A stretch of DNA of 64,000 nt, from positions 1 through 64,000 of the forward strand of contig BDIU01000358.1 in assembly GCA_002118135.1 (NCBI GenBank), in the 5' to 3' direction. A program made the translations under genes and the position numbers. Position 1 is the first letter of the stretch. Each line of letters opens with the position of its first letter. Under the pieces are notes generated by a model that was not told the DNA's origin, searched no databases, and saw nothing but the letters and a program-made list of their open reading frames with translations. Source of the DNA: Trebouxia sp. TZW2008. Lineage: Eukaryota > Chlorophyta > Trebouxiophyceae > Trebouxiales > Trebouxiaceae. Positions 351 through 63,100 of this stretch are shown piece by piece.

Positions 351-2966
351 ATGAGCTCTGACGATGACTCGGAGTACAGCTCCATGGATGAAGAGGTTAG
401 TTGCCGATCGCTCTTGCGGTCGATTTGTTCCCCAGCTCACGGCCAGCTCACAAAAGGCCCTCTGTTGTCACAGGAGACCGCTGTAGCCCTTGCAGAGGCA
501 GAAGCGGCGCCCGCAGCCGAACAAGAAAGGCTAAATATATACAACACAGACGCGCTGCACGACAAGCTAGAGGACATAAGCTGGAGCGCAGAGCAGCCCT
601 GGGTTGAGACTCAGGTCATAGCGCATTCAGAAGCAACAGCTGTCAATAATGTTGATGATGACCTGGCCAGAGAGCTAGCATTCTACAACCAGGTGCGATA
701 CAGACCCGTGCAGCACCTGTGTGCAAATGTCAGCTTGCAACAAATGACACATTGCTTGAATTTTGCGTGTTGATGTATGCTATATTCATTTGGCCAGCTG
801 CTTTGATGCAAAGGCTGGAAAAACAACCTTAATTGGCACAATAAGCCTGTGACGTACATAAAATTGATGTAAGGAGTCACAAAATGGGAACTCTGTCCTG
901 TGTTCTGTTTCCAGTTTGATCAAGGGCAATTTGATGCAAGGGTACACCTCTTAGGGATGAGTGTAGTGGTTACATCAAGAAACCAGGTCATTCCTGACAG
1001 GCTCTAGGCGCTGCGCAGCAAGCAGTGCGCAAGTTTGAAGCTGCTGGCATGACCCGGCAAAGGCCATCAGACTACTATGCAGGGATGGTCAAGAGTGACA
1101 ACCAGATGCGTCGTGACTACAGTCCTACTTCCTGGGAAACAAGTGCAGTGATCACATCCAAACAACTCTACACCTCTTGCTGTAGGCTCTAGGTGCTGCA
1201 CAACAAGCGATACGCAAATTTGAGGCCGCTGGCACACCCTGGCAACGGCCACCAGATTACTACGCAGAGATGGTGAAGAGTGACGACCACATGGCCAAGG
1301 TCAAGCAGCAGCTGATGCATGAGCAGGAGCAGATGGAAGCTGTAGAGCAACGGTATGTGGCATGTGTCTCTGTCTGTATAGACTATAGGAGTACTGATTC
1401 TGTACAGCTCTTTGCATCTTGTACTTGTGCAGCGCCATCTTGCATTATGTGCAGCGCAAGCTGACTGCATGAGACAAAGAGACATTTACAAAAGAAAAAA
1501 TCCATATGACTGAGGTCAAGCAGCAGCTTATGCATGAGCAAGAGCAAATGGAAGCTGTAGAGCAGCGGTAACTTGCAGTCACCTCCACATGCGCTGCACC
1601 AGTCCAGACCCTATTTAGGTCTGTGTATCTAGGCATTTGCATGTGGCCACATGGACTGAATGAGACTTGTTTTTGTACAGATCTTGACACTCGAGAAGAT
1701 GGTACTTGGAATGTATACTTTTTTGGGATCCAGTCAGCAAAATCAGGTTGCACAGGCCTCGTGGCATTTGCATATGGTCCAGGACGCAATGTGGCACCTT
1801 GCACACCAAGTTTGCTGATTTTGGCTGCTGATGTTTGCTGCTGTGTGCTGTCAGGCAGAAACAGCGGGAAAACAAGAGGTTCAGCAAAGCTGTACAGGCA
1901 GAGCGCATAAAGGAGAAAGCTCAGCAGAAGAAGGCCAACATCACTGACATCACACGGTTGCGCAAGCAAAGGCAGAAGCAGGTACAGTGCGCCACCTGCC
2001 ATGCAGTTCAAGAAGATTGTCCCTGCACTGACTATTTTCACTCAGCAGTTCCCAGTTCCCAGTGCAATAAGAACGCAGCAACAACTTGCATTGCATTGTG
2101 TCTGCAATGAGAAAGTTACAATCAGGCGCCATGTCACAAATTACTGACCTGTGCAGGATGTGCGTGTCAAGATGTGTGGTCCAGGAATGCAAGTATACTT
2201 GGCAATTGCGCTGAGCATGGCTTCAGCTCATCATCATTATGCTGACTACTACAAATGCTTGACAAGCCACAAATCATGAAACTCAAAACAGAAAAGAAAG
2301 CAGCACACAGACATTTGTAGACTCATGACTTATGTGCAGGGCTTTGCTGGAGAGCTTGATATCGATGAGGCTTTAGATCACAAGAGGCCTGCTGGCAGGC
2401 CTGCTCAGCGAGGGGGCAGAGCGTCACAGCCCTCAAAGCGGCGCCAGTATAAAGATGAGAAGTTTGGTGAGCTTTGCATGCTGAGCTCAGTTAGAAGCAG
2501 TGAAGCCATGTTCATTGCTGTGCCTTCAGAAATGAGTGTATGTCAATGTGGTCAATTCCTAGCATTTTGGCTTGAAATTGCCAATCAAGACTTCAGACAT
2601 GCAAGCTAGCTTTTTTGAGAAAACACTTGCTGGCTGTGGCTCTTGGCTAAGTTAAGCATGCGTCAGACAGTCAGGCTTCAATGAATGTGCTGTTCAGGAT
2701 TTGGAGGTCGCAAGAGGAAGCTCAAGTCAAACGATGCATCCTCAGCTGCTGACATGGACGGCTTCAAGACTGGCAACTTCGGCTTTGGCCGCGGCGGAGG
2801 GAGGGGGGGCGGCAGGGGTAGGGGTGGGGGTAGCAGCAGGGGTGGGTTTAGAGGCAATGGCAGGGGTGATAGTAGGGCCAAGAGAGGCAGGTTTGGGGCT
2901 ATGAGCAGAGGCACTAAGGGAGGCAACAGACCAGGCAAAGCGCGGAGAGCTGCTGCCAGGGGCTGA
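351..2966 (+). CDS. EBP2: rRNA-processing protein EBP2 homolog, six exons
   Basis: EBP2 is a nucleolar factor needed for 27S pre-rRNA processing and 60S subunit assembly. I read the exons as 351-395, 474-692, 1186-1352, 1855-1981, 2340-2466 and 2698-2966. The phases agree throughout and give about 317 residues, the normal family size. The start MSSDDDSEYSSMDEE is an acidic N-terminus. Family landmarks follow: NNVDDDLARELAFYNQ, RPPDYYAEMVKSDDHM, a lysine-rich coiled coil (about residues 140-185), then RRQYKDEKFGFGGRKRK. The C-terminus is glycine/arginine-rich (GRGGGRGGGRGRGGG) and basic, as expected for a nucleolar RNA-associated protein. Introns are GT..AG. Exon 3 has a decayed tandem copy upstream at 1001-1107, and its 3' end has another at about 1510-1572. 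Family identification is secure; exact splice sites are my reading. Confidence 0.9.
1001..1107 (+). repeat. Decayed tandem copy of EBP2 exon 3
   Basis: This stretch follows an AG acceptor-like site and closely resembles the start of the used exon at 1186, about 185 bp downstream. It would read ALGAAQQAVRKFEAAG, against ALGAAQQAIRKFEAAG in the used copy. It then drifts: it carries MTRQRPSDYY where the used exon has TPWQRPPDYY, and it loses homology and a donor soon after RMRRDY-like codons. A partial copy of the exon 3 end (QLMHEQEQMEAVEQR region) lies at about 1510-1572, running into TAA. I infer that neither is normally spliced in. Confidence 0.8.
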
Positions 2967-4107
2967 AAGTGATGTATATCTGCTGAGTTACAATAATATA
3001 GGGCAGAAGAATGTCTGCAGACATAAATCAACGCTGAGGTAGACGGATGTGAATGTCAGTTTGGGATGTCAAGTTGGGAGTCCGTGGTCCTGCCAGCAGC
3101 ATATGATACAGATCCTGAATTGTGTTGTGGTCAATGTGCCAGTTCGCATTGCACCTGATGTTTGTCAGTGGGGTTTCATGTCAGCTGGTGAAAAGTCAAA
3201 TTTATTGGGCAGTGGGTTGCTGCTGGCAAGATTCCGCCTATTATCAGCGCTTCTTTGTGCTGTGTCACAAAACTTGGACTTTCTTGATGTTTTGGTTTGT
3301 CTTTCTCCTGATGTTTTGGTTTGCAGTCATGTATATTTGCAAATGGAAGCAGCTTGCCTCCTATGTTCCCTCAGACTGTACATGTCAAAACAGATTTCGT
3401 TTTCTGCCCTGTTGGGTCTGGTGGTGTTGCTGAGGTGCATGCTGACTAGCCAGGCATGAACATGGGGCTTGTGCAGAAGTGCAAACGTAGGTTGTTCTAG
3501 TCGGATAAATAACACGGTCTCAGTCAAAGCATCATGTGTAATCATATCTAGCTCAAGAAGATGCACCAGAGGGTGCCGGTTGAGGCTTGCACAAGACAGG
3601 GGTCAAACAAATGATTATCATCATGTTATGCTCTGATGCTGGAGGATTTGTATGTCAGGACGCTTGCACCTGCCTGCTAGAGCACATGACTGGTTGATCA
3701 CAGGCTTGTGTGGAAGCGCCAGCATGGATTCTATCGTCGCTGTCCTTTGCTTGATGCAGTGACTAAGGCACCAAACTGTGGCCATGGCAGGGCTGCAGCA
3801 GCAAACTTCTGCATCAGCTCCAGATCTCTAGATGGACAGGAGAAGCTTGTCCTCACAAGACAGACTGCATTGAGGCAAACAGCCTGAAATTGAACTGCGA
3901 AGAAAATCAATGAGGCACTTCAGCACTGAACGTGCCAACAGAGTGATACACCCCATACAAAGGCCTGAGCAGCAGTGACGCCAAAGCTTGTTTGCAAGTG
4001 TACGCACTGCAGGCCTTATGCTGTCAAGGAAGCGACTCATATATGTTGCATGCAGAGATGTTTTACACTGCATTCCAGTGGGCACAAAGCATCCCGAGAT
4101 GAAGATG
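2967..4107. other. Convergent intergenic region, no gene seen
   Basis: This interval lies between the EBP2 stop and the proteasome alpha-4 stop, which face each other. Open frames here are short and show no recognisable protein or consistent splice structure. It should contain the two 3' UTRs. A TTACA at about 4064-4075 reads TGTAA on the minus strand, 30-45 nt past the proteasome stop. TGTAA is the usual green-algal polyadenylation signal. Confidence 0.5.
4064..4080 (-). terminator. Possible TGTAA polyadenylation signal for PAC1
   Basis: A TTACA on the plus strand at about 4064-4075 reads TGTAA on the transcribed strand, just downstream of the PAC1 stop. The position fits the chlorophyte poly(A) signal. 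The motif is only five bases, so chance occurrence cannot be excluded. Confidence 0.3.
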
Positions 4108-7650: not shown

Positions 7651-7830
7651 CTCATATGTGTCAGAATATGAACTATGCCCATATCTGTCGGAAACGAATT
7701 CTGCCCATGTCTGTTGAAAGTATTGAACTGCACCCAAATCTGCTGGAATGCAAACTCTGCCCATATCTGTTGGAATGTGAACTCTGCTCATATCTGTTGA
7801 GACATGGTCTCTGCCCACGTCTTGTGACAG
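7651..7830 (+). repeat. 27-bp minisatellite, about six units
   Basis: Six or more degenerate units of 27 bp follow one another; the clearest are at 7741-7795 (unit like TGTTGGAATGTGAACTCTGC then CATATC). The unit length is a multiple of three, so one frame stays open and encodes a nine-residue repeat (LLECKLCPY / LLECELCSY / LLRHGLCPR). I see no evidence that this frame is part of a gene. It lies between the PAC1 promoter and the 3' end of the U2AF-like gene. Confidence 0.75.
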
Positions 7831-7991: not shown

Positions 7992-10927
<2,936 letters not shown>

Positions 10928-10929
10928 GC

Positions 10930-13459: not shown

Positions 13460-16400
13460 CTACAATGTCATCCCAACTTGAGAGTCAGGGCCAGCATAAT
13501 GCTGTTGCAGCGCAAGGACCAAACCAGCAAAGCTTGAGAAGTCCTTGTTGACGCAGGGAATTGAGGTTTGCAGCACGTCACTGGCACCGTCTGCTGTGTA
13601 AGGGCCATGAGCAGCCAACAGAACTTTGTGGTCCTTCACAGCGTTTTTGATCACATCTACACCACCCATGATGTGCGCCAAGCCTTGTGCCTGCATGATC
13701 ATGTGCAGAACATACAGAGTTAGCTCTGTACAAGCAGCTTGTGCATATCAATGCACAGGGTTGGATCAATGCACAAGGTTGGTGACAAAACAAGCATGTG
13801 CACCACCCTGAGCAGAGGCGTCGAGTATCTGCAGCTGCAAGTCGCTAGTCTGATATCAGGCGCAGCTGAACCAAGCCTGTCAAGCTCATGATGGATGGAT
13901 GGATGGATGGATGGATGGATGGATGGATGGATGGATGGATGGATGGATGGACAGACACAAGAACGGACAGACAGACAAATGGGCAAACGAATGAATGAGT
14001 GAGGGAGTGGACGATTATGTCATGAGTACTATGACATGGCAAGATGACACATCTACAACCACGAGCACATACCTCTGCAGTTGACGTGATTGCAATTGCA
14101 TCAATCTGACCATTCACCAGCATCTGCTTCTCAACATCAGCGGCTGCACCAGCGGACGTCTCATACACATTCACCCTGACAGCCTCTGCACCGCCTCTCT
14201 GCATGACCAACAGAATATGCATGTGAGTCACAGGCTTTGCAAGGTTTTGTTCATTTCCAAAACCGCGCACTGATTGTCATGACCACATGACCACGGAGTG
14301 ATCAGCATGATCTTCATGGTCTGTTTGGACCGCTGTTCAGTCTCCAAGACAATGGAACTTTTTGGTTGCTTTATTTGGTTGTGCTTGTCTTTGGGGCATG
14401 CATGGTGCAGAGGATCAACTGGCAAGGAAAGGCGAAGGAAAAGCGACTTGCTTATCCAACAGCTGATTGCTCTCTAGTGTGAGAAGACCAAGTGCTAGCT
14501 GAGATCAGCGAAGCCAGTGCAGGCAACATTTGCATGTTATTGTCACAAACGCATGCAAGTGCAGCGCAAACTGCCATTTCTGGAACTTGATGCCACAAAG
14601 TCAAGCACAACTTGCCTCAAGACCCTTGGGGCTTCACAAGAAACACCACAAATATGTTTGGCAATACCTGAAGCGCAAGCATGAAATTTGGAACAGTGGG
14701 TGGCTCAGTCAGGCCCCCTGTTACCAGCGGCGTCGGGCACAGTATCCGAGCTCCTCTCAATTGCTTGCGCTGCGCTAACTCCTTGACCAGACCCATAGCA
14801 CTAGACTGCAAGCCAGCAGACTGCAATGAAAGACATGCAACCCATTCCCAACAGCAGCGAGCACAGTATCTGTGCCCTTTTGCATTGATTGCGCTGCGCC
14901 AACTTTTTGACCAGGGCCACAGCACTTGACTGCAAGTCAGCAGAATACTATCAAAGATGAGCAACCTGTGACCAGCAGCATTGGACAAATTGCTTCTGCG
15001 TCACTCAACAATGTTACTGCTCAACAAGTTGCAGCTCCTGAACCAGACTGACAGCACTTTGCAAAATCTAGAGCCCGTGCCTTGCTACTGGGTACAAAAG
15101 ACATGTAGACATGAAAGTTGAGGGTACGCAGGCTAGCAAAAGGGTTCACAGACCTCCATTGGGGTCTGAACAATCTTCACGCCAAGTTGTCTCAGAACGT
15201 GTGCATCAGTCACCACAGCCCACCAGTATGTTCTGCTACTGAATACAATGTGCATCAAGACATAGAAAGTTGAGGTACATGGTAGCACATGGGAAAGCAG
15301 ACCTCCATTGGGGTTTGGACACTCTGTACTCCAAGTTGTCTCAGGACATCTGCGTCCGATCCCAAAGCCCAGCAGTATGTTTTGGAGTCCAGGAGAGCCT
15401 TGAGCGCTGCTTCATCACTGCCATGCAGCTCTGTCAGCTTCTGAAAGACTGCAAAGATGCCTTGCTTGGAGGTGAACACGATGTGGTCAAACTGAAATAG
15501 GTTCTTGAGCTGCCTCTCCGCCTGCAATGCCAAACATGAGTGAGCTTTGCAAACATTGCAAAGACGCCTTGATTGGAGGTGAAACAAACTAAAAGAGACG
15601 CTGGCTGTTGAGCTGCCTGTTTGTCTGCAACAGTAGTCACAAGCATCTTCACCACTGATGTGCAGCTCTGTCAGCCCCTGAAACATCACAAAGATGCCTT
15701 GCTTGGAGGTGAGCACAATATGATAAAACTGGAACAGGTTCTTGTGGTGCCTCTCTGCCTGCAACACCAAATACAAGCATTTCAGTTGGTTGCAACACAG
15801 CACACGATCTTGCACACATGCCACTGATGTGCAGCTCAGTGAGCTTCTGGAAGACCGCAAAGATGCCTCATTTGGAGGTGAAGACCCTGTGGTCAAACTG
15901 AAATAGGTTCTTGAGCTGCCTCTCTGCTTGCAATGCCAAAAGCAGGTGACTGCAGTATCGAGACAGCGCATGCTCTTGTGCATGGAGCATCAGGTTCAAC
16001 TCCCCTTGTCAGCATTTATAGATGTTGGCATGGCGCAAAAAAACCCTCACGGGCGACATAGATATACACATCAGTCCGTCCATGAGTGCATGACGACCCT
16101 AGTACAGACACAAAAGCCTGTGACGTCAATAAGTCATACTTGCGTGCAAAATGAACATTCAGACTCAGGCACACAAGCTACTGTAAGCAGTCAAGAGCTA
16201 GCAACTGCCAGCCTGTGACAAGCAATAGACACTGACAACTGTGCATTGCCATCCGGTTATGCAACACAGCTGCAAGATGCAGTCCACACAGCATGTGACA
16301 GATACTGCTGCCAGTCAGTGTCATATCATGACATCATCTGCAGGGCACCTTCATGCAGCCACAAATGGCATGCAGCCACAAATGGCATGCACAGTGCACT

Positions 16401-17572
16401 CATGGCACTTCATGAAAAGGTCTATGTAGAGTATCACACGGTCATGCACTCACAACTTGCATGCCTGACACACATGAACAGTTGACATAAGCCAGGGGTT
16501 GCCACACTGAACTCATTGGCAGTAGCTCACCACACTGTCATGATCTGTGATGGCATTGACACGAATGCTGGGTACCCACACAGGGCGAGCTCCTGCTGAG
16601 ATAAGCATGAATGCTAGCTTTGCAGCATACTGCCGGGGAGCTGTGATCATCACATGTTTGCCAGCAAGCGGCAACACAGTTTCATCTGCAAGGATACAGA
16701 ATTCTGCTCAAACTTGGGCATATGCCTTTGATGTACAGGGGTACGTTCTGAGACTCAGGATCAATGCTAGCTTTGCAGCATACTGTTGGGGAGCTGTGAT
16801 CATCACATGTTTGCCAGCAAGTGGCAACACTGTTGCTTCAACAGGGGCATGTAATTGTGAGCACTTGCTTGTCATGCATGCAGGTGCAGTTGCTCAGTGT
16901 TACGAGAGCCAAGGATAGGGTGTCGTAGTGATCACATGTTTGCTGCTGAGGAGCAAGTTTGCATCGCACCCAAAGGCACAGGGTTTTGCTCAAAGTTTTG
17001 GGGAGTTCGGCTGTGCTGCACATCAAAAGACATGCTCTGTGATGCACAGTCCGAGCACTACATCTTGTGTGAGATCTATATCAAGGCTGTCTATATGACA
17101 AGCAACAGTTGCTGCCAAAAGACATACAACTCAACATGCAACCGACATGCCTGAAAAGCAGCATTTCCATGTCAGTCACAGGAAGGGAACAGGGCAATGC
17201 TTTGCAACCTGAACTGCTTTTCAGAGATGTCATTCAAGACACACTCAAAGTATGGACCAAGCATGCACATGAATGCATTCAGCCAAGGCATCACGTTTGG
17301 CCCTTTGAGCTTTTGCAGAAACACAGTGTTCTCACAGATCACTGGGGTGTACTACTGCATCTGCAAGATCTCCTGCTGGTGCAACTGTATCAATACAAGA
17401 CATCATCCATATTGTGGTCAGCACTACAGCGCTTGTTTTTCCTTTGTGTTTCATCAAGGTGGCACAAAAAAGGCTCACCTTGCAGAGGTCCAGGCCCTTG
17501 AGTGAACGGTATGGGCTCTGCATTGCACGTTATCCTTGGCTGTCGCCTTTGGCCACAAGGCCCCAATCTCAT
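13460..17572 (-). CDS. HEMD: Uroporphyrinogen-III synthase (HEM4), plastid-targeted
   Basis: The enzyme cyclises hydroxymethylbilane to uroporphyrinogen III, the branch point to chlorophyll and heme. Six exons in transcript order: 17572-17479, 16685-16531, 15521-15303, 14805-14668, 14198-14073 and 13690-13460. Phases agree, giving about 320 residues. The first 31 residues ([20 protein letters not shown]...) are basic and lack acidic residues early on, like a chloroplast transit peptide. The HEM4 fold follows: [20 protein letters not shown] with [73 protein letters not shown], then [15 protein letters not shown] and [15 protein letters not shown]4 sequences are poorly conserved, but motif order and length fit well. 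Exons 2, 3 and 4 all have decayed tandem copies in the flanking introns. An (ATGG)15 tract lies in intron 5. Confidence 0.85.
13891..13950 (+). repeat. (ATGG)15 microsatellite
   Basis: Fifteen uninterrupted ATGG units inside intron 5 of the uroporphyrinogen-III synthase gene. Degenerate GACA/AATG-type runs follow to about 14010. A length-variable site is likely. Confidence 0.95.
14820..15070 (-). repeat. Decayed copies of HEMD exon 4
   Basis: Two successive copies upstream of the used exon 4 (14805-14668) in transcript sense. The first, about 14826-14940, repeats the acceptor-side sequence (TGCAGTC...TGGTCAA-like, ...GCGCAGCGCAATCAA...). The second, about 14945-15070, is weaker. They carry frame changes relative to the used exon and lie in intron 3. 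Confidence 0.65.
15150..15935 (-). repeat. Array of decayed copies around HEMD exon 3
   Basis: The used exon 3 (15521-15303) is surrounded by relatives. Its start (GAGAGGCAGCTCAAGAACCT...[20 protein letters not shown]) recurs at about 15930-15830 and 15765-15650 with substitutions ([20 protein letters not shown]), and in shorter form at about 15630-15540. A copy of its 3' part (Q..VQTPMEV region) lies at about 15240-15160. The spacing is roughly 130-190 bp. Only the assigned copy has a full-length frame linking acceptor and donor in the right phase. Confidence 0.75.
16740..16975 (-). repeat. Two decayed copies of HEMD exon 2
   Basis: The segment at about 16840-16756 is almost identical over 75 bp to the used exon 2 start ([15 protein letters not shown], then QQYAAKLA). 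It then diverges and has no plausible donor. A third, more worn copy at about 16970-16915 keeps only the AAACATGTGATCA core. Both lie in intron 1. Confidence 0.8.
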
Positions 17573-42011: not shown

Positions 42012-43648
42012 ATGCAGTGCGACTACGCACGGCACTTAAACGCAAACGCGCTTCAATGGGCCAAGAGGGTGCGCGCGCAGGACTACGTAGAGGACCGTCT
42101 CGACTCACAACCGCAAGTACAACCAAGCTGTATGCGACATGACTTGCATCTCGGGGCACCAACAACACGAGCCTCGTTTCTGGTGAAATCCGTTGTGGGA
42201 AATCTCAATTTGAGTTGAGCTAGACAGGTGACTGGCGCATTTGCTTCCAACCAAGTGCCAACTTTGCAGCAACTTTTTGTCCGTCTGTCAGCAAAGCTCC
42301 AGAAGATCTGAGGGCCTTCGACCGGGATTGTTCGGCTTGCAGTGTTGTCGTGGGGGTCAAATCAAAACTCAAAGCCCTCACTGCTTGCTGCATGCAAGAC
42401 CTGTGGAGCCCTGCACCCAGTGAAGGGGTCTGCCCTTTTGGCCCATACTTTCCCTAGAGAAATGATTGCATGCATCAGACTGCATGGCAGCCTGTGTGGT
42501 GTGTAATATGCAAAGCCAAACCTGAAGCAAAGCTGAAGTTGTAACTGATCAAAGCTAGCAGCAATGCAGCACTTTCTGTGTATGTATGTGTGTTTCTCCG
42601 TCAGTAAAGATGTTGCTGAAGACCTGAGTGCCTTCGTCAGGGAGCTTGCACTGGCACTGTGGAATTATGGTCAAAACTCAAAGCGCTCACTGCTTGCTGC
42701 ATGCAAACATCGTCGGGGCCTGCATCAAGTGACAGGTGTATCATCAGCCCATGTGTTTCCGGCTGGAAGGGTCTGTTTGGGCGCTCAGATCTGAATGGAC
42801 AAATCTCCACATCCACAACAGATCCACAACCCGTGGGCAAAGTTGGGCAAGTCTTCCACTCCAACCAGGACAGGACGGTCAGTGTCAGAGAATGCGCCAG
42901 GGCACAGGTATGCCCTCAAATCAAACGCTGCTACATTGTATGCAGCCTATGGTTGTCAGCTGGCAACATGCATTGTGGACAGAATCCAGCCAGGGTGCAT
43001 GAGCCAAGCATGATGTGCTGACCAATTCCTTGTGTGAACACTGATTGCAATACTAGTAAACTGGCAACATTTAATATAGAAGCAAGTTTTGTTTTGAAGC
43101 CGTCGTAAAGTATGGCATAGCAGGTTGGCTAGTCATAACATTCACAAGCACCACTTGTACATGACGTGACATAATCAGGATAATCATTGATCTTTCTGCA
43201 AACTGAATCAGAGTCAGCAGTCAGCAGCACATATATGTATCTCACATATGTGTGGCACATTTCTTGTCTTGCCAGGGTGGCTTGTCTATTTTTAACATAT
43301 ATGACTGTGCAATGTTCATCTTCTAAAAGTCAGGCAAGACATTGTGATGTAGTTGATTCTGCAGCCATCCTAAGGACTGAGACCTCTTACTGCTCAAAAC
43401 ATGACCTTGGACAGTCGATTGTCAACGTTCTGCAAATATATATATTTATACATGTCCATAGCATCTAAGCCTCTTGCTCCTCAGCTAGCTACAGGAGCTC
43501 ATGGAAGAAATGCGACATGCCTACACAATATCTGCGATTGAGATGCGGTCCCTCAACAACTTGCCACAAGTATGCCTCAACCAGCTCAGCAACAAGACAG
43601 ACATAGCAACGCAGTGTAAGTTTAATAGCGCTTATGTAGCTGCTGCAT
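42012..43648 (+). CDS. Unidentified multi-exon gene
   Basis: Several exon-like blocks share a compatible reading frame. About 42616-42737 reads [20 protein letters not shown], then [20 protein letters not shown]. About 42825-42908 reads [20 protein letters not shown]. About 43488-43620 reads [20 protein letters not shown], then SLNNLPQ. A possible first exon at 42012-42116 ([20 protein letters not shown]) opens four bases from the start of the opposite-strand hypothetical gene, so the two cannot both be right as drawn. A decayed copy of the first block lies at about 42290-42410, as in the better-known genes here. I do not recognise the protein. Confidence 0.4.
42290..42412 (+). repeat. Decayed copy of an exon of the unidentified gene
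   Basis: Shares CAGAAGATCTGAGGGCCTTCG / CTGAAGACCTGAGTGCCTTCG-type sequence and the run GTCAAAACTCAAAG(C)GC(C)TCACTGCTTGCTGC with the block at 42607-42710, some 315 bp downstream. The reading frame in this copy is interrupted. Confidence 0.7.
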
Positions 43649-43670
43649 GACACACTATAAGCGATTATTG

Positions 43671-44396: not shown

Positions 44397-44817
44397 TTGA
44401 ACGCGTACCACGAAACCAACAGCGCGTATGATGCAGCATGCCCAGCAGCTGGATAGGTCAGACTGTGTGCCAGCTGGCACCTGCTGAGCAGTCAAGCCTC
44501 GACTGTCATGGTTACTAATCTCAGAAGCTTTACTCATCGTAGGATTGAGGCTTACTCATCGACCGCAGAGGGCTTGCTTGATCCAGCCCACACTGTTGTC
44601 ACAGCAGTCTGACTTGCCGGGAACCATTTCCAGAAATATTTGTCGAGTGCTTGCATCGAGCTGAAATGCGGCGATCAGCCCGTCAAGATCGTGTTCACAC
44701 AGCTGACTGGTGTTCTCGCTGCGTGGTATCCGAGGTGTTGCTAGGTCAGTACGATGCTCAGCAAAGCTTAAAGTCGATAGAGTGCGACGTTCAACTGTCA
44801 AACTTTGCGCAGGCACA

Positions 44818-46134
44818 ATGAACTTTGAAGTTCGCAGTGACATCATGTCGGTTAGCTGGGCGGCACTACCGACCGAGGTATGGGCTAAAGTCTTCTCGTG
44901 CCTACAACCTGCCTTCGTTCTGGACTCTCACATCGTGAACGGTCCTGACATGAACGCATACCATCGAATGTCACGTGTGAGGCATGCTTCGCGCATGTTG
45001 CATCAACTCCCATCTGTTTGCAAAAGATTCAAGAACGTATTCGTGGAGAACTCAGGTCTGAGATCTGAGCTAATCTTGAAAACAGTGGAAAGCAGTCAGG
45101 AACTGATTGCGTTGACCGACTACGTAACGCGGCATCATGGCTGTATGGATGTGGTTGTAGCAAGATGCTGCCAGCAACTGTTGTCACCTCTGTTTGCTCT
45201 TAGGTCTCCAGTCAAAACACTGTGGCTTGCATTTAGTGACGTTGAAGAGGTTGCGAACATAATTGCACTGTCTGCCCAATTTGCCTCCTTGACCACGTGT
45301 ATGCTCGACTTTGATCTGCGTGGCGAACTTCTTTCAGATTCGGGGGTCACCTTGCTGCCATTTCGCAATCTGCATCACCTGAAGCACCATGAGTTGCATG
45401 GGGGTATATTTTTGGACCTACATGCGCCCATGCATTTGACATTTCTGAGCTTGAGATGGTCTTCAGCTGACTGCAGCGAAGATTTTCAAAGCGCTGTGTC
45501 TTTGCTAGAGTTGCATCTGTGGCATGCAGACATTGCCAACTTTCATAGCTCAGGTGTCACAGCTTGCACGCATTTGTGCCAGCTTTCATGTGGCTACTCA
45601 CTTGTATCATGTGGAAACCCTGGTGAAGTCATGTGTACAGGAAAAGGGCGATATTTTGATGTCTTTGCTTTCAGTATGCCTGACAGCTTGTCAAATTTGA
45701 CAGGCTTGACGAAATTGACCATTCTTTGCGGAAGAAACTTAGAGTTTCAACTGAATTGGCTGACGCATTTGACAGTCCTGCAGAGCTTGACTGCCACTTT
45801 TAATGACACCAGCATTCAAGCCCCAAGCACCTTGAGTAAAATGATCAGACTGTCATCTATAGAATTGCTAAATGCGCGCGTACACCCACAGCAGGATACA
45901 TGTGTTGATTGCGACTTGGCTGATTTTGTCGCATTGCAGAGTTTGACTTTGAGTGGTAACTTGAGATTCAAGCAAAAGTTGCACCACCTCACTGCTTTGC
46001 CATCACTGAAAGAAATCAGGTTGCAAGATCTAGATGCTTGCTCTGGTGAAGCAGCTGCAAGGTCAAACATGCTTGCACATTATATTGGCATTCATCGGCC
46101 AGATGTGTCCTTAGTTCTGATAGGCAAGCCTTAG
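44818..46134 (+). CDS. F-box/LRR-like protein, intronless
   Basis: A 438-residue single-exon frame from ATG 44818 (MNFEVRSDIMSVSWAALP). An F-box-like start (LPTEVWAKVFSCL, then LPSVCKRFKNVF) is followed by irregular leucine-rich repeats (LHLTFLSLRW, LTGLTKLTILCG, LQSLTLSGNL). F-box proteins of this type are substrate receptors of SCF ubiquitin ligases. The target cannot be predicted. It is one of only two long intronless genes here, and it is paralogous to the gene at 56681-55383: both keep LTFL...AEDC/SEDF...L..LHLWHA/WVDLWEC and SACSDLEHLALSY / TACTHLCQLSCGY. An alternative upstream GTG-initiated extension is unlikely in a nuclear gene. Confidence 0.75.
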   Translation: MNFEVRSDIMSVSWAALPTEVWAKVFSCLQPAFVLDSHIVNGPDMNAYHRMSRVRHASRMLHQLPSVCKRFKNVFVENSGLRSELILKTVESSQELIALTDYVTRHHGCMDVVVARCCQQLLSPLFALRSPVKTLWLAFSDVEEVANIIALSAQFASLTTCMLDFDLRGELLSDSGVTLLPFRNLHHLKHHELHGGIFLDLHAPMHLTFLSLRWSSADCSEDFQSAVSLLELHLWHADIANFHSSGVTACTHLCQLSCGYSLVSCGNPGEVMCTGKGRYFDVFAFSMPDSLSNLTGLTKLTILCGRNLEFQLNWLTHLTVLQSLTATFNDTSIQAPSTLSKMIRLSSIELLNARVHPQQDTCVDCDLADFVALQSLTLSGNLRFKQKLHHLTALPSLKEIRLQDLDACSGEAAARSNMLAHYIGIHRPDVSLVLIGKP

Positions 46135-52425: not shown

Positions 52426-52430
52426 TTATT

Positions 52431-52733: not shown

Positions 52734-54796
52734 ATGGCGGTTGGCTTCAGAGCCGTTGCTGCAGTGACCGTCTTGGTGTTCCTTTTGTCATTCCTATCGC
52801 TTCTGAAGGTACGGCAAAGCCTTTAGCTTTGTGAAGCCGTATTCCGGTATTGACTCTGTGCTGCCATCGCATGCTGCAGCTCTTCCACAGTGGTATATCA
52901 GCTGAGTTGGTCGATGGCCAAAGCTCACTCCCAACAACAGTACATCAACTGCAGCAGCAATTGGATGCTCAAAAAGCTCAGTATGCTGAACTGCAACACC
53001 AGATTGAGCAGCTTGAGGCAGCTGCAGAGTCTACACCAGGGCACAGAGCTGCAACATCCAGTGGCCAGTTGCATGCCAAACCAAGACCCTCAGATGCAAA
53101 TTCTGGCAAAGCACACAAGCTGGCAGTCATTGTGCCATACAGAGACAGAGAGCAGCATCTTGTAAACCTTATTTCACGGCTGAGTCAGTACCTCACGGTG
53201 AGTCCTTGTGAGCGCTATGTTTGCAGCTCCAGAAACCGATGCATTATGGAAGAGTATGCAAGACTTGTTGCATTCAAGGCATGACAACGCTGTCACCCAT
53301 GCTGCGACCTTTGCAGACCCAAAATTGCATATTTGCAATCTTCATTCTTGAGCAAAGCCCCTTATACTTGTTCAATAGAGGCGCCTTGCTCAATGCTGGC
53401 TTCCTGCTGCTATCAGCTTCAGATTACGACCACTTTGCCTTCCAAGATGTTGACACGATTCCAACAGACAAGGGCAACATCCAGTACAGCTATCCAGTTG
53501 GCAAAGCTCCTTTGCACCTGACTCCCTATGGAATCCATCCCGCTGCAAACTTCGTGGTAAGGACATGTTTTACCTGTCACACCATGAGCTGTTGACCAAG
53601 TACCAAATCTCTTTTTCACCCGCCTGTACAGCAGCGTGACCACCAAGTCTTCTCAAGCTGTGACGTTTTGGGTAGGCTTTTTATTGGAAAACAGTGAGCA
53701 GTTGAACACAAGCCTTGATGTTGCTTGCACTTCTGCAGTCTGTCATTGTGCTGGCACAAATACTACAGTCATGCATGATTTGAGTTCCTAATAACATTGG
53801 CAGCTGTAACCATAAACAGCTGTGCCTTGTGCTTTCCACACTCCTTCTGCTGCAAATCGGCTCACAGCTACCTTCTTGTCATGGGCTGCTTCTACACACA
53901 GCGGCTCCCAGTATGATGCCCAACAGCATGGACCTGTTTTCCGTCTAACATGAATAAGATCTTGTGCATGACAGGACTTCTTTGGCGGCATCACCATCTT
54001 CACTCGTGAGCAGTTCGAGAAGGTGAACGGCTTTGGAGTCAACTTCTGGGGCTGGGGCAGAGAGGATGACAACATGCGCTACAGGCTGATTCAGCAAGAC
54101 ATGTTCCCGCCAGAAGTGCCTGATGTCCCTAAGAGGTCCCGCCGATTCTTCTTTGAGCATCAGAAGCATGTCAAGGCCCTTGAGGTGTGTCCCACATTGG
54201 TTTACAATGTGCACGTGCATTATGACTTGAAACTCCTCAAGTTGGTTGTGCCGATCTTTCTTTGAGCATCAGAAGCATGTCAAGGCACTTGAGTTGTGTC
54301 CAACATTGATCTACAGTGCGCACATGCATTTTGACTTGCAACTCCTCAGGTCTTTTGTGCTGTTTGACTCCATACGTTTCTTGCTTATTAGCCAGCAGCC
54401 CAGAGATGGCACAGTGTTGCTTTTTGTGAGTGCTGAGAGACTGCGTGCCATAGGTGCTGTTACGCTTCTTCCTTAAATGTAGTGTACTGTTCCCCAAAAC
54501 CCTAAACTGTTCCGTCCCCATGAAAGTATTCACTCAACTGCCTGATGGTTGCTGTGCAGTGGCGTGTGGAAGGAAACGGGTCAGAGGCAACATACTACGG
54601 TGTGAATCCAGACAAACCCTATGGAGATGCGCGCATTGTGAGCGTGCAGCCACACCTCATGCAAGAAACCCTGTCAGGCCTCAACAGTACTCATTTCTGG
54701 ATCACTGGTGTGCAGACTACATTGTCTGCAGTCCACTATACTGTTAAACTTTTCTGTGATGTGACAGAAACGCCTTGGTGTGACCAACAGACTTGA
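52734..54796 (+). CDS. Beta-1,4-galactosyltransferase 7-like (GT7 family)
   Basis: A type II Golgi glycosyltransferase that in animals adds galactose to xylose in the proteoglycan linker. Five exons, 52734-52808, 52880-53197, 53317-53556, 53975-54184 and 54560-54796, all in phase, 359 residues. Residues 1-25 are a signal anchor (VAAVTVLVFLLSFLSLL). A stem coiled coil (residues about 40-75) is Q/L/E-rich. The catalytic domain has KLAVIVPYRDREQHL, LFNRGALLNAGFLLL, HFAFQDVDTIP (DVD metal-binding motif), GGITIFTREQFEKVNGF, then FWGWGREDDNMRYRL, the acceptor-binding WGWGxEDD signature. All are intact. It resembles B4GALT7 more than B4GALT1-6 by the short length. The acceptor in an alga is unknown. 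Exon 4's 3' end has a tandem copy in intron 4. Confidence 0.88.
54140..54352 (+). repeat. Tandem copy of B4GALT7-like exon 4 end
   Basis: The exon 4 end plus donor-side intron (54140-54245: TCTTTGAGCATCAGAAGCAT, GTCAAGGCCCTTGAGGTGTG) is repeated immediately at 54250-54352 (TCTTTGAGCATCAGAAGCAT, GTCAAGGCACTTGAGTTGTG), a unit of about 108 bp. The second copy has lost the GT (GAGTTGTG) and so should not compete as a donor. It is the freshest echo in the window. Confidence 0.92.
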
Positions 54797-55382: not shown

Positions 55383-56681
55383 TTACACGTTCATGTACTC
55401 CAACATCTCCAGAAGGGGAAGCTGTTCGAGCGTCAACTCAAGTTGTGGGTTCACATGAGGGAGTTGATGAAGCACAGCAATCATGTATGAAAAAGTCCTG
55501 GAGTCTTGCGCAGTAACGTCTTCAAAGCAGAGATTTCTTAATGATGTCAGTCGCAGAAGGCTGCCAGCGCTGTGTGGTGAGAATTCGATTTCAAGATTGG
55601 CAAATGAAAGTCGTTTTAAAGCATGTAGCCTATGCCACAAGCAATGTGACTGCAGCTTTGACTGAGGGGCCTCCTCATCCTTTCTCAAGGATTCAAGATG
55701 AATTTCAGTAAGGCTTGTGAGGCTGAGCAAACTGTTGACAAAGCTGCTCGGAAAATGCTCAAGTTCAAATTCAACACTCCTGAGGGAAGTGAGTCCCGAA
55801 GCCCAATGAGTGCTCAAGGACTGGAGGTCTGCAACATTGTCTCTGAGCATCAGGCTGGTGAGCCTGCTTGAGCAAGGAGGGTAGGCTGTTGCTGATGTAC
55901 GAGTATTGAGTTGTTCGATGCCCTCTGAGTCCAGCAGTTTGCAGTAGCTCAGTGCTAGATGTTCCAAGTCTGAGCAGGCAGACAACCCCTGCTGATGCAG
56001 ACCATGGACTGTGCATTCCCACAAATCCACCCAGCGCAGCGATGATACAAATTTGCAGTCCTCTGCAGTAGAATTATCTGCATCCTGAATTTCCAAAAAT
56101 GTCAAGCCTGTGAGCTGCTCCAGCCCAGTAAAATTGCCGCTAGAAAGCCGGATCTTTGTCAAATGTGGCAGATTCTGCAGGGGTAGCAGGTCCAATGCTT
56201 CCAAAGTATGGAATGCTGACAGCAGCTGCAGGGAGGGTTGTTTAAGCATCATGATGACAAACTTGATAGGAAAGTGTAGAGCAACCATGGCTCCCAAGAC
56301 TATGTCCACTACATTACTGAAGCAGGTAGTCTCAAATCTGTTGAGGGACATCTGATTATGTCCAAGCCAGGTCAGCAAGCTGGGAAGTGCCTCCAGAGGA
56401 AATTGCTGTGCCAGAGTAAAGCGGTGAGTCTGCTGTTCGGACAAGCGACGAAATCGCTTGCACGACAGCCTGAGAGTCAGCAGCTGCTGTATCTGCTCAT
56501 CAAAACCGAGTTCAGGGAAGCTTCTGAGGTTCGAGTCAGTATGGCCGTGGACGAACAAGTCATCAAGATGCGCGAAAACATGTGTCCAGAGCTCATCTGT
56601 CGATGCAATGACAGGCCGCTCTTGACGCGCCGTGCGCTCGACGCCAGTAGAGGTGTCGCCCATCACTTGTATGATGAACAT
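55383..56681 (-). CDS. F-box/LRR-like protein, intronless paralog
   Basis: A 432-residue single-exon frame from ATG 56681 (MFIIQVMGDTSTGVERTARQ) to the stop at 55383. The F-box-like region is weak (TDELWTHVFAHL, then LRLSCKRFRRL). About ten leucine-rich repeats follow: LEALDLLPLQNLPHLTKIRL, LTGLTFLEIQDAD, SSLRWVDLWECTV, LEHLALSYCKLL, LTSLTEIHLESL and LTSLRNLCFEDV. It is a probable SCF substrate receptor by family analogy. The long repeat region and the lack of introns match the paralog at 44818-46134, although the two lie on opposite strands about 9 kb apart. Confidence 0.72.
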   Translation of the reverse strand: MFIIQVMGDTSTGVERTARQERPVIASTDELWTHVFAHLDDLFVHGHTDSNLRSFPELGFDEQIQQLLTLRLSCKRFRRLSEQQTHRFTLAQQFPLEALPSLLTWLGHNQMSLNRFETTCFSNVVDIVLGAMVALHFPIKFVIMMLKQPSLQLLSAFHTLEALDLLPLQNLPHLTKIRLSSGNFTGLEQLTGLTFLEIQDADNSTAEDCKFVSSLRWVDLWECTVHGLHQQGLSACSDLEHLALSYCKLLDSEGIEQLNTRTSATAYPPCSSRLTSLMLRDNVADLQSLSTHWASGLTSLRSVEFELEHFPSSFVNSLLSLTSLTEIHLESLRKDEEAPQSKLQSHCLWHRLHALKRLSFANLEIEFSPHSAGSLLRLTSLRNLCFEDVTAQDSRTFSYMIAVLHQLPHVNPQLELTLEQLPLLEMLEYMNV

Positions 56682-57102: not shown

Positions 57103-60100
57103 TTATCCAAAGCCAAATCCTTCTGAGCCTTCATGAATGGCAACCATCAGTCTATCTCTGAGCTGCTCCTTGCTCTCGTACTCTAGAATGTCTAGCTGGT
57201 TGAAACAAGTATGTGCGCTGGGCAATCGCTCTTGAGGCCCGTATGCCTTGTGAATCTGGAACTTCTGGGGTCCTGAAATGCCCTGCAGATAATAAGGTCA
57301 CGCTTGAGCATGCAAAAAGGGTGTCCTACAATAGCAGATCATGCGGACAAGGTACACGGTCAAAACTGCTTCCACTCACGCAAACTCCCCTTTGGATGCC
57401 TGATGGCACAGCCTCTCCTGTTGCTTTCCTTCCTTCACTGGAGCTGTACAAGTTGTACTGGACTGGCAGAGTGCTTTACAGTGTCACATGGAGGTGTCGA
57501 ATAGTCTCAGATAAAGACATCTTCAGATGCAGTCACTCTTGCCAAGGCATACAACTCTTTCCTAATAATTGTCACACCAAATTGAACAGCAAGCAGGAGC
57601 ATCTGCAGGGCACTTGACAGGTGCCCTTAGAATGGCAGGTTGCCTGTGCATAAGCGTGTGGGAAACAAAAAATGGCAAGACGCATTACCTGCAGGGCCTT
57701 GAAGCCTTCCAAGGGCACTTTAGAGGTGCCAGTAGTGAACTGCACCAGTAGCGCCAAGTCTTCTTTGCTGAGGGCAGACACCACTTCCCAGAACCACTGG
57801 ATTTGCTTCGCTGCTGGAGTGTAGCCTGTGTACTCTGTATTGGCCCGTAGGTCATCCACATCAATCTCTGGCAGACCCGAGATCAACAACTCCAGCTCAT
57901 GGTCATTGAACATGTTGATGAGCTCCTGTAGAGCACGAAGATTGTCAGCATCTGTGCATGGTGCTTTGGCCATTTCCTCGAAGGCGTACATGAGAAGGAG
58001 AGCATTCAAAGGTTGCAAAACAATGGTCATTGAATATGTTGATCAGCACCTGCAAAGCGCTCAGACTGTGAGCATAGCAGGTCGTGTCTACGTTTCCAGT
58101 ATTTGCACAGGCGTGTATGCACAACAGAATGTTGCAATTTGCGTGCATTCACCACGCTCAGAAGCACATTAATGTACTAGTCTACAATGGTGATGGTGAG
58201 AGCTATAGCAGAGCATATGAACCTGTACTGGCTTGGTCTGAAAGGACACAGTCAGCTGTATGCTACAAGCATGATCAACAAGCAGAGTGTGGCTGAGAAC
58301 AAGCAACGCTGACCTTGGGCACTAGGTCCCAGAAGCCTTGCAGGAAGGAGTTGATCTGGGACTTGATAGCAGTTGTCATGCGATGCCGAGCCACCAAATT
58401 GACATACTCCCGCTTGTTCTCCTCTGTCACCCTGCGCCATACACCACATTTGTCAGCATCTGACTTGCACAAATGATGCAGCGCCAGCACTTGTAGCGCA
58501 GCCAGAGCTGTCTCGGCCCGCGGTGCAGCACATGCACATGTATAGCTGAAGCAGACAGCATGCATATTGAAGCAGGTCACAAGATATGTGATGCATCATA
58601 TGCAAAGTGATTGTCACTAGGGAATGCAATGCGCTGCAGCCAAGTGCATTTTGTGTGTTGTGCTGGACAAGTTGCCTCACATGCTGTAGACCAATGCAGC
58701 ACATATCATGGTATATCATGCTCCAACGCCTTCAAGGTCTTCATTGGATTTCATTCCATTTATCAGGTATTGGAGGTCTTCCTCCAATATTGTCCTCCGA
58801 TATATGGTATATATATGGGACATGATATGGTTTCTTGAGTGAGCAAACTGCCTGATGTGTGTCTGCCACCCATAACATTATGCAGCTAAGTGGATCACAT
58901 GTGTTGTGCTGTGCCAGACAAGACCGTATGGCTATTTGAGTGAGCATCGTGCCTGATGTCTTTGCCGCCTGGCTTGAGCTCCACAAGTTCTTTCTTGCCA
59001 AAGTAGTCAGACTCCTCAGTGAAGGTCAGGTCTAGCACATCTGTGATGTTGTTCTCCAGCATCCAGATGAGGTTCTTGTAGTACTCAGGGTCCACCGCCT
59101 CAATATCCTGCAGAACAAGAACATCTAAGTCACACTCCTGTTGTGTAAGAGTGTCACATAAGACTTGATGATGGCTGTCTGTGCATGCAATGCCGATCAA
59201 ACTCCTGTGTGCGTGTGTGTGACAGAGCTGATAAGAATGATCGGATTCTGAGCAGGTTGACGCCAAAACAGCCAAGGGTGCAAGCTTGTAGTAGCACAGG
59301 ATGCAAGCATCATATGAGCACAGGGCCATTAAGCAACAAGCAAGACAAAGTCTTGACTCCGCTTATGACATATCTGAGGGGACAAGTGGGAGAATCCCAA
59401 GAGACTCCTGCCAAGCAAATACCTCGTAGGTGAGTGGGTCTCCCAGCATGTGCTTGTAGAAGGAGCGTGTGAAGAAGGCGTCAATCAGCTGGCCATCATA
59501 CAGCGCCTTGCCGATGATACGCCCCACAAACTTGAAGAAGTCCAAGTGGTTCGTCCCTCGAGCCTCATCATTCTGTACCACTGAGTTGGCATTTGGCTGG
59601 AACGTGGTTCCGTGCTCTGGCACTTGGACGAACAAGCTGAAGTTGGGATTGAAGATCTCCCTTGCCATTACCTGCAACAAAACCAGCCTCATCATTCTGA
59701 GCTGCTGAGTTGGCATGTGGGTGGAGTATGTTCCATGCTCTTGCACTTGGACAAACAAGCTGAAACTTGGGTGAAGGTCTCCCTGGGCATGACCTGCAAC
59801 AGAATGAGCAGAAGCTTGCCAGTCTGGCCTTGCATACCAGCATTGCGTGCATACCTCAGTACGCTCTGCTTCAAGTGCTGTGCAAGACATAAGCAAGCCG
59901 GAAGAAAGTCATGTGGATCAGTATGGTGTGTTGAGCAGCTGACCTGATACCACTCCCTGGAAACGCCACCTGCGTCAATGCCCTCCTCTCCCTGGAACTG
60001 CACGCTCAGCTTCATGCGCATCTCCTCTGGAGACCTGCACCACCATCACAAATTTGTTTGCTAACGCGCAACATTGTACATCCAAAACAACACTGCCTAT

Positions 60101-63100
60101 ACGAACAACAGGGCATCTGCTACAGCGCAGTTTTAACTGCAGCCTTAATCTGATTTGCATGAGCACCAGCTGCTGGTAAACAGCTACTTGCCACTTACAG
60201 GACTGTCGCTGAAGCATGCATGAGTTCAAGAGCCCACTTGTCATTCTTACTTCCAGCCATCTGTCTGTCGTCAGGTCATGCATAGCTGGGCATGTAGCTG
60301 CACAACGCAGCAATAGGGACAGTGAACAGGCAAGACCTGATACAGCAACAGCAGAAAAAGGGATTACCTCATACGCAGCTGGTGGAAGCTGTCCTCAAAG
60401 ACATGACTCCTTCTCACAGCCAGCCTGAGACCGCCGTACCGCCTGTGATCATCTCCAGTGGCGTGGATGCGGTTTCTGAAATAGGAGCGCTTGTTGTCAA
60501 ACTCTATGAGGCGGGGCACCTTCAGCAGAGGCTGCAAGGAGCCCTGCAGGAGGCTAGAATTCTGGCGCAGCAGTGTGTTCAGAAGCCGCCTGTGCTTCTC
60601 TGCAAACCTGCAGGCAAGCAGATGAGCCTTTTGGCCATGCAGTTTAATGTGCACAGGACCCTCAGCAGCTACCGCCACAGTGTGCAATACTGCACACGTA
60701 CTCAATCAGTGCAGAAGCAGGCATAGTCATTCAGCAGCTGCCTGTGCAATTCTGCAAACCTGCAGGTAGCAAGATTGGCCACTTTGACATCTAGGGGCAT
60801 GGGCACAGGAACCTCAGCAGCTGGGGTTGAAGTTTGGCAAGACTGTGGTTGTGTGTCAACAAAATCATGCAGTGAACTGAGCCTCAGAGAACACTGCAGC
60901 AGTGAATTGCAGGCAGACCCTGTATATTGTAGGCCAAGAAACTGCTGATGTTGTTCTGAACGGCCTGACCTGATGAGCGTCGCAGGGGCAAATCAAATGT
61001 TCAGCTTTGCCAATGTTGACTCATGCTCTTGATGACAATTAACAAAAGTATGAATCAACACTGCAAAAGCCAGACATGCAAATTGCCCTAGTGACAACAA
61101 ACATGGTTTAGGGTCTAAACTTCAACAGGAGCAATGCACACGCAAGCTGGATGCAAGCAGCGACGTTGCCACCGTTTGACATCCTTAAAAGAGGGCAGAT
61201 GCATCATCTTGGACTCAGCCATACTGACATCCAGTATAAGGGCAAGCCTACCTCAGGAAAGGCACATGAGACTCAGCCACGGGCTGAGAGGGGGCAGATG
61301 CACCCCCATGGGCATGCTGCCAGCTGGCAGGGGTCTGCTGGGGGGTCTGCTGGGGTACCCCCTCTGAAGAAGAAGCAGGACCTGGGGTGGCTCCCATTGA
61401 AAGCTCAGCTGACATGGCTGTCTGCAGAGGGGAGCTGGGTGGCGCTTGTGGTGGAGCCCGTGCATCACACATGACAAAGAACGCCTCAACCAGAGGCAGC
61501 ACCTGCAGTGACGAACAGGCTTGAGTCAGGCAATACAAGCGCGTGGCTGTCTGCAGAGTGGAGGTGGGTGGGCCTTGATGCCAGAGAACTCAATGCAAGC
61601 AATGCAGTTTCACATGAGCCAGGCAAGCAGTTTGCACCAGCACTGGCATTGACACTGGCATTCAGTGCTGCAGTGTGAAGTGTCCAGCAAAGCATACATG
61701 TGTAGCATCAGGCAAGTGAACTGCTCTGGCATCAGCATAAGCAGCACCAATTGCATCTACAAATGATACCTGTGCAGCACCAGGAGGGAGTATGCTAGCA
61801 GCTGCAGAGGGCTGCTCGCTGCTGGTGTCCACATGGGCAGGCAGGCCGGCCTCAATCTGGCTGATGGCAGCGCTGAGCGCCACCCACAAGGGCTCCAAGC
61901 ACTGGCCCATCTCTGCTGTGATGGCTGTGTCGTGCTCATCTGCTGCCTCTTGCGGCTACAAAAACACAGGCAAGAGTCAGTATCAGCAAATTTCAGCTAA
62001 TGATTGCTGTCTCCATATTCAGTACAGGAGCAGCAAGAACTGCAAATGTCTGCTTACATCAACTTCAGTCAATGCAGAACTGGCCCCTGCTCCATTGCAC
62101 ACAAAATAGCACAAACATGCATGTGAATGGAAGACATGAGATCAACGCAAACCTTCCCTGTCTATCAATTTGCCCAAGACAACAAAATTGCTCATGACTA
62201 CATGATGAATTTGTTGGTTTACAATGGCTGTCGAACAGTTTGATGTACGAAAGCAACCTTGTACTGCATATACATGCATCAAAATGTGGAGCAAAGGGAA
62301 AAGCAGCAAGTGCTACCTGGTCCTTCTGCTTGGCAGCCTTGGCCTTGGTGAGGGACACCGCTGCCTTCAGCACTCGCAGCACCAGAATTCGGACACCACT
62401 GGCGTGCGCTGAGATATCCCCTGTGCTGCTGAAGTTGCTGCTTTGCAGTGCAGCGAGCTCCCTGCCTGCCAACTGAGCCAACCTGCAAGGCAACACAGGT
62501 GCCCTGACCCCCACTCTAAGCCTCGGACCGGTAAAATGTCACTACTCATGTACCACCCCCTGATAATCAGACAGATCTAGCGCCAAAACAGAATTTAGCG
62601 GCAAAACGACTCTGACAAGTGCTTACTGAAAAGTCTCTGTTGCGGGTACATGTGATGACATGCAGGCAGGCTGAGTGAGATGCTGCAACATGTATGCCAG
62701 CGACATGGCGTCACCACAAGCAGAGAGTTTTGACACATGCAAGAAAGGCTGGAGCAGTGGTGTTGTATGCAGCAGTGGTTTACAGCAAGATGGGTGCAGC
62801 AGTGCAGGGTTGCTCACCGCTGCAGTTCTGTCTGCAGCTCTGACAGCATCAGTGGTTTCAACTGAGGGCAGATCTCAACCAGCATCTTGATGACAGCAGC
62901 ACATCGCTTCTGCGCCAAATCAGACAGCCCAGATCGCCCAAGCAAGCTCGCCAGCTGCTTGAGCAGCTGCTCAGGCAGGGTCTGAATCACTAAAGCAGGG
63001 TTGTCCTTATGATCCAGCTCCGGAACCACAAGAGGCGGTGCTGGCTGCTGCTGCTGCTGTTCTTTGCCACTGCCACTTGCGCTGGCGCCAGCTGTGCTGC

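Follow-up and report, generated by a model that had tools for sequence, protein, structure and literature searches.

Introduction

Close direct repeats are continuously created and continuously decay in eukaryote genomes, where they occur in excess over inverted repeats, an excess that falls with age. Work by Messer and Arndt from 2007 is cited in Schimmel et al. 2021, on short tandem duplications, and a study in potato (PMC4974935) is said to describe intron gain by tandem genomic duplication. Here we analyse copies of exon ends in the first 64 kb (hereafter the window) of a 363,894-bp contig, BDIU01000358.1, of the green lichen alga Trebouxia sp. TZW2008. In this DNA, exons of recognisable genes such as EBP2, HEMD and DIS3L2 are flanked by partial, degraded direct copies of their own ends, which we call exon echoes. 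We consider it likely that the echoes are the decayed remains of many independent short tandem duplications, mostly old, which arose without strong regard to exons and are now seen through filters of survival and recognition.

Short tandem duplication itself is a known mutation. The relevant extract of Schimmel et al. 2021 (PMC8355091) attributes such duplications to error-prone break repair, and the copies described there resemble ours in being local, direct and abutting; ours differ in that the units are mostly longer (60–230 bp) and old, and about a tenth of the sampled DNA lies in recognisable pairs. Tandem duplication of exon DNA can also create introns via a duplicated AGGT, according to a section of one review (PMC3443670), and a Drosophila case of intron gain by tandem genomic duplication appears in an excerpt of PMC2891723. 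As in the process outlined in that section of the review, the duplication lies within a gene and splicing removes the extra copy; unlike it, the duplication here spans an existing junction, and no intron need arise. The geometry of intron gain, in which donor and acceptor are two copies of one site and the period equals the intron length, was found at one candidate among 512 introns (9343–9527 of sampled stretch L022). Compared with the general turnover of close direct repeats, the excess of direct over inverted copies and the decay with age are shared, but young copies are in short supply here. Trebouxia genomes measure 63–74 Mb with a G+C content of 49.6–51% in the excerpts of two genome papers (PMC11523091 and PMC12712428), whose main texts use the word ‘tandem’ in neither case and ‘intron’ zero times and once, respectively. 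The literature that we searched yielded no account of such tandem echoes in Trebouxia.

Results

Local direct copies in the window and across the genome

The genome (68.5 Mb in 527 contigs) has no annotation, so gene models were made with our own small hidden Markov model (HMM) gene finder, trained on the window and the sampled stretches. The whole sample comprised the window and 24 stretches from elsewhere in the genome, 292,196 bp in total. Near copies were sought by self-BLASTN, with forward pairs counted against inverted pairs and with reversed sequence as a control. At a first setting (E ≤ 1e-4), the window gave 44 forward pairs and no inverted ones, far above chance, which confirms that the echoes noticed from the sequence alone in a preliminary description of this DNA are real. 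At a later, separate setting, the window gave 53 direct near pairs with no inverted pair and no reversed-sequence match, and the whole sample gave 201 direct pairs, eight inverted pairs and one match in the reversed control. Five of the eight inverted pairs come from one stretch, L006, which holds a compound tract of direct and inverted copies (L006:5749–7039; its listed inverted pairs start between 5758 and 6592).

The pairs group into 98 arrays, or one per 3.0 kb, and cover 10.4% of bases; some statistics below refer to earlier sets of 82 and 90 arrays, and 93 arrays were dated by BLAST. The first 30-kb addition to the sample (L020–L022) was similar to the rest, with 16 direct pairs, none inverted and 8.3% of bases covered. 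A census of weaker scores (24–40 bits, over 262 kb) found a further 71 direct and 26 inverted near pairs outside the arrays, so the array counts are lower bounds. These results support local tandem duplication, spread throughout our sample of the genome, dense and leaving partial, decaying copies, as the preliminary description had proposed.

The duplications measure roughly 60–400 bases and lie head-to-tail in and around genes; the spacing of the best pair is 60–229 bp in 76 of 90 arrays. Periods show no preference modulo three (27, 26 and 29 among 82 arrays) and only six of the 98 arrays are repeats within one exon, of an ordinary kind, and we therefore set aside protein repeats or coding minisatellites as a general explanation. 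The commonest best-pair periods among the 90 arrays were 120–130 bp (11 arrays) and 170–180 bp (10 arrays), peaks that are too few against noise for any claim of a nucleosome-like period. Array counts per 5 kb showed no clear over-dispersion (variance/mean 1.24, P = 0.11, 57 bins) and hence no clear duplication hot spots.

Echoes are one-sided and spare the protein

True exons of EBP2, DIS3L2 and HEMD were told apart from partial copies by orthologue-guided tblastn with Trebouxia proteins. The mapped features are listed below in window positions.

998–1114, plus strand: EBP2, upstream echo of the 5' part of exon 1186–1352 with its acceptor; 81% identity, offset 185; AG kept
1186–1352, plus strand: EBP2, true exon; 98% amino-acid identity to EBP2 of Trebouxia sp. 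C0006
1491–1570, plus strand: EBP2, downstream echo of the 3' part of this exon with its donor (self-BLASTN, tblastn); GT kept
14840–14980, minus strand: HEMD, upstream echo of the 5' part of exon 14820–14668; offset 124, 75%; AG lost
15083–15237, minus strand: HEMD, downstream echo of the 3' part of exon 15521–15303; offset 151, 76%; GT kept
15642–15940, minus strand: HEMD, two upstream echoes of the 5' part of exon 15521–15303 (tblastn); offsets 237 and 406; the farther one has an in-frame stop and has lost its AG
16748–16860, minus strand: HEMD, upstream echo of the 5' part of exon 16685–16531; offset 152, 91% identity; acceptor beyond the aligned part, no echo junction mapped
27803–27891, plus strand: DIS3L2, upstream echo of the 5' part of exon 27965–28166 (tblastn); AG kept
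27965–28166, plus strand: DIS3L2, true exon with five echoes; 81% to Trebouxia DIS3L2 P0123
28313–29066, plus strand: DIS3L2, four downstream echoes of the 3' part of this exon; donors at 28391, 28598, 28728 and 29064, GT kept in three of four; single place in genome
31916–32016, plus strand: DIS3L2, upstream echo of the 5' part of exon 32223–32425; offset 304, 79%; AG kept
32054, plus strand: DIS3L2, second, weaker acceptor echo of exon 32223–32425; AG lost
34233–34316, plus strand: DIS3L2, upstream echo of exon 34417–34580; offset 171, 78%; AG kept
34724–34774, plus strand: DIS3L2, downstream echo of the 3' end of exon 34417–34580; GT kept
35566–35981, plus strand: DIS3L2, three upstream echoes of the 5' part of exon 36063–36185; all three TGCAG acceptors intact
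54141–54251, plus strand: B4GALT7-like gene, 3' part of exon 53975–54184 and intron start, paired by self-BLASTN with the next feature
54250–54360, plus strand: B4GALT7-like gene, abutting echo; 86%, offset 109; donor GT lost (TT); single place in genome
57899–58075, minus strand: HECT/UPL1-like gene, pair across an acceptor, echo upstream; offset 124, 81%
59561–59804, minus strand: HECT/UPL1-like gene, abutting pair; offset 124, 82%
60578–60822, minus strand: HECT/UPL1-like gene, pair; offset 152, 75%
61415: HECT/UPL1-like gene, further pair (self-BLASTN)
42302–42732, no strand: tandem pair in the gene at 42–43.6 kb; offset 316, 73% identity
46734–47378, no strand: array of three to four copies with a period of about 172; offsets 172, 344 and 513; 2.5 copies by Tandem Repeats Finder; single place in genome
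47829–48649, no strand: compound array; offsets 137–364

Seven genes had been named as bearing echoes, and all were recovered here with the exception of a METTL21-like gene, which a Pfam scan of four unspliced open reading frames (see below) did not confirm. The count of one to four copies on a side also stands, since DIS3L2 exon 27965–28166 has one echo upstream and four downstream. By contrast, the copy at 54250, which had been called nearly intact, is the 86% identical one listed above, and the highest identity among the window pairs listed at E ≤ 1e-4 is 91%.

Across the sample, 25 pairs joined one coding with one noncoding copy; exactly one junction was included in 17 of these, no junction in seven and both junctions in one. 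Position relative to the exon follows a strict direction rule in the 17 single-junction pairs, with nine of nine acceptor echoes upstream and eight of eight donor echoes downstream. At 13 chosen window boundaries in EBP2, DIS3L2, HEMD and the B4GALT7-like gene, echoes were mapped at 12, and all 19 echo junctions (a set that overlaps the 17 pairs) obey the same rule, which speaks against random-side insertion of exon pieces. A frame rule holds as well: all six arrays inside a single exon have a period divisible by three. Both rules are explained if only duplications that leave the protein or messenger RNA (mRNA) unchanged survive.

The echoes themselves decay roughly neutrally. Mismatch was 0.216 between noncoding copies and 0.178 between exon and noncoding copy, and in the latter class it reached 0.148, 0.140 and 0.245 at codon positions 1, 2 and 3, about the expectation for a neutral echo beside a constrained exon. 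GT or AG is kept at 14 of the 19 echo junctions, about what neutral decay permits, so decoy splice sites adjoin real exons. One such case is DIS3L2, where intact TGCAG decoys at 35590, 35725 and 35889 all lie less than 475 bp upstream of the true acceptor at 36063; acceptor choice must therefore need more than the core motif. In EBP2, tblastn with Trebouxia EBP2 P0001 gave 72% for the echo at 998–1114 and 98% for the true exon.

Young copies are scarce

In simulation, detection was nearly complete up to 25% true divergence. At a constant rate of duplication, 10.9 of the 93 dated arrays would be expected below 4% reported divergence and 21.3 below 8%, compared with none and two observed; in the full set, the least divergent BLAST pair fell below 4% in none of the 98 arrays. 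Gapless unit-by-unit scanning revealed one 122-bp minisatellite (L018:2261–3100) with neighbouring units up to 99% identical, and the same scan of the arrays found no other units of at least 60 bp at 93% identity or more. Fewer young than old copies is impossible under steady birth and any loss, which leaves three possibilities: a drop in the rate, unusually rapid divergence of fresh copies, or collapse of the youngest ones in the assembly. Collapse is an unlikely cause above a few percent divergence, where young copies are also too few. The process had been described as ongoing; from the age distribution, it does not look so.

Placement relative to exons, introns and intergenic DNA

Exons and introns are covered equally (10,671 of 92,625 and 18,761 of 163,504 bases, both 11.5%), compared with 920 of 36,067 intergenic bases (2.55%). 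Among intron bases, those no more than 25 bp from an exon have 15% coverage; the figure is 9–12% at 26–400 bp, 17% at 401–800 bp (5,473 bases) and 49% beyond that (1,186 bases). Most randomly placed arrays touch an exon because exons are short and frequent. Contacts were compared with those under circular shifts. Of the 98 arrays, 74% touched coding sequence, where shifts gave 68% (P = 0.12), and 63% touched a junction, where shifts gave 55% (P = 0.05). Once the six same-exon repeats were left out, the mean coding fraction of the remaining 92 arrays was 0.328 against 0.318 (P = 0.39). In the earlier set of 82 arrays, coding and junction contact were both in excess at P = 0.04–0.05, the latter at 68% against 58% (P = 0.04). 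For the 55 of these arrays with a period not divisible by three, the coding fraction was 0.300 (0.320 by shift), and 73% touched a junction (60% by shift, P = 0.026). By identity, the 42 least similar of the 98 arrays showed no coding excess over chance.

Array centres were intergenic in three of 98 cases, compared with 12.1 expected (P = 0.001). Because exons help to preserve pairs inside genes, we restricted this comparison to noncoding arrays, where three of 26 were intergenic against 5.9–8.8 expected by opportunity (P = 0.13 to 0.009). Equal abundance in intergenic DNA had been named as the finding that would sever the link to exons; intergenic DNA instead appears poorer in copies, although after this correction the deficit is suggestive only. 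Introns with copies had a median length of 325 bp (n = 113) and those without 266 bp (n = 399; P = 0.11), but random shifts of the same tracts over the 512 complete introns gave 353 bp for copy-bearing introns. No lengthening was seen in this set, and the suggestion that copies explain much of the intron length was not borne out.

Is an exon or junction preference left over?

Duplications were simulated by random placement in genes, followed by a protein-preservation filter, decay with constrained exons, and the same search and HMM; the simulated exon rates are our own assumptions, and HMM labels enter both the simulated and the observed side. The 86 genic arrays observed had 74% coding and 65% junction contact, and coding contact was 73% in the 80 genic arrays left without same-exon repeats. 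For simulated ages of 0.4–0.6, 0.6–0.8 and 0.8–1.0, coding contact was 68%, 82% and 87% and junction contact 57%, 60% and 65%, respectively, while detection dropped to 38%, 12% and 4%. Slower decay of exon copies can thus, in these simulations, yield most of the coding and junction excess if the duplications are mainly old.

Several results weigh against placement without regard to exons, or against the mostly old age and tandem birth that go with it. Ages of 0.12–0.40 give only 49–53% coding contact (53% against the observed 74%: P < 0.001), and the younger-age simulation also falls short in junction contact (55% against 65%, P = 0.037). With ages spread evenly over 0.12–1.0 and weighted by detection, coding contact comes to 57% and junction contact to 53%, and only detection-weighted ages of 0.4–1.0 reach 73% and 58%; such old ages predict a noncoding identity near 75%, compared with 78.7% observed. 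Of the 92 arrays that are not same-exon repeats, 66% touch a junction, compared with 55% by shift (P = 0.013). The 21 most similar arrays (at least 85% identity) have a coding fraction of 0.465 against 0.319 by chance (P = 0.016), which slower exon decay could produce, as could a bias. Copies abut (within 10% of the period) in only 39 of the 98 arrays, with 20 intermediate and 39 more widely spaced, a gap for which decay of intronic ends could account. Finally, our own HMM sometimes takes an echo for an exon. A modest real bias towards exons or junctions is therefore possible.

Discussion

Origin of the echoes

The reading that we favour runs as follows. Many independent tandem duplications, with units mostly of 60–230 bp, would have struck gene-rich DNA mostly long ago, the second copy abutting the first at birth. 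Inside an exon, a duplication would persist only if in frame. Across an acceptor, the downstream copy would still be joined to the exon body and the upstream copy left as an intronic decoy; across a donor, the decoy would be left downstream. The exon copy would then hardly change, so that an exon–echo pair would diverge more slowly than an intron–intron pair and stay visible for longer. All pairs would have begun as clean tandem units. They may have originated in break repair, either through the filling in and joining of staggered ends or through template slippage, at breakpoints that age has since blurred. The mRNA presumably skips the echoes. Copies beside exons would look special mainly because exons remain recognisable for longer and because protein-preserving duplications survive.

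The preliminary description held instead that duplication is aimed at transcribed exon–intron junctions, with splicing or transcription there triggering local copying. Junction contact at about 1.2 times chance, the shortfall of the younger-age simulation and the rise in intron coverage within 25 bp of exons all fit such targeting, and a modest bias of this kind is what remains of the claim. However, exons and introns are equally covered, no coding excess is seen without same-exon repeats, coverage of intron bases rises rather than falls at distances above 400 bp from an exon, and neither copy is coding (best pair less than 10% coding on both sides) in 26 of the 98 arrays. Moreover, the survival filter removes exon-internal events and so raises the junction share without any targeting, and untargeted old copies already give 57–65% junction contact. 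Since selection and slower exon decay can explain much of the apparent excess, we regard targeting as unlikely. Somewhat less improbable, though still doubtful, is the idea that an ancestor underwent a burst of short tandem duplications, mostly within gene bodies and probably through transcription-linked breaks, which has by now almost stopped. Thousands of exon fossils, each on one side of a junction, would remain from it, many of them with decoy splice sites that are still intact and that splicing would have to pass over. The lack of young arrays and the low intergenic coverage are what such a burst predicts. Against it, exons preserve pairs within genes and the intergenic deficit weakens once only noncoding arrays are compared; short intergenic stretches may also be constrained or turned over, the intergenic label rests on our own HMM, and the L018 minisatellite has nearly identical units.

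Duplications old and largely indifferent to exons also account better for the copies than do two further alternatives. Functional duplicated (mutually exclusive) exons might be suspected, given that several echoes have open frames and most keep their splice dinucleotides, yet only partial, one-sided copies were seen at the window exons examined, one HEMD copy carries an in-frame stop, and changes are frequent at codon positions 1 and 2 (mismatch about 0.14). The extra EBP2 segment is also absent from all six relatives' proteins that were aligned (of 334 found), and we consider this explanation very improbable. Introners are mobile elements of about 70–300 bp, and the copies are likewise intronic and of similar size. 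Nevertheless, each of the three arrays (of 98) searched by DNA against the 68.5-Mb genome, with a tool that skips very common words, matched its own place only, and no direct pair more than 2 kb apart was found within any single sample source. Insertion of introners or of repeat-family pieces is the least credible of these readings.

Significance

Recognisable old pairs make up about a tenth of the sampled DNA, so that the rules of survival lie open to view: duplications within exons stay in frame, echoes keep to one side of a junction, and exon copies decay more slowly. The decoy acceptors and donors that remain intact next to true exons offer a natural test set for splice-site choice; they can also mislead gene prediction, as they did our own gene finder. 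The scarcity of young copies makes the history of the mutational process testable across Trebouxia species.

Gene models and other features of the window

A second HMM training gave a median exon of 118 bp, a median intron of 275 bp and the acceptor TGCAG. Pieces of the window models contain the Pfam domains proteasome, RRM, galactosyltransferase, HECT, SelR and HemD; four unspliced open reading frames near 42.6, 44.7, 47.3 and 48.8 kb matched no Pfam family. EBP2 is 85% identical in protein to that of Trebouxia sp. C0006 and 80% to that of C0010, and the best matches of DIS3L2 and HEMD among named organisms are to Trebouxia. A search for sister-species DNA with EBP2, in one scan of viral contigs, yielded no relative. 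No Rfam family reached its gathering score in the window, and no transfer RNA was found there. Two long open frames (55383–56663 and 44707–46131) resemble leucine-rich repeats on visual inspection; a Pfam scan of the second frame found no family. The HMM called 70 of 512 introns as GC-AG, and among 21 checked exon ends of DIS3L2 and EBP2 a nearby GT donor was present at 18 and no clear donor at three; the GC-AG share is probably an over-call. One HEMD intron contains a perfect 62-bp GATG microsatellite (13890–13951).

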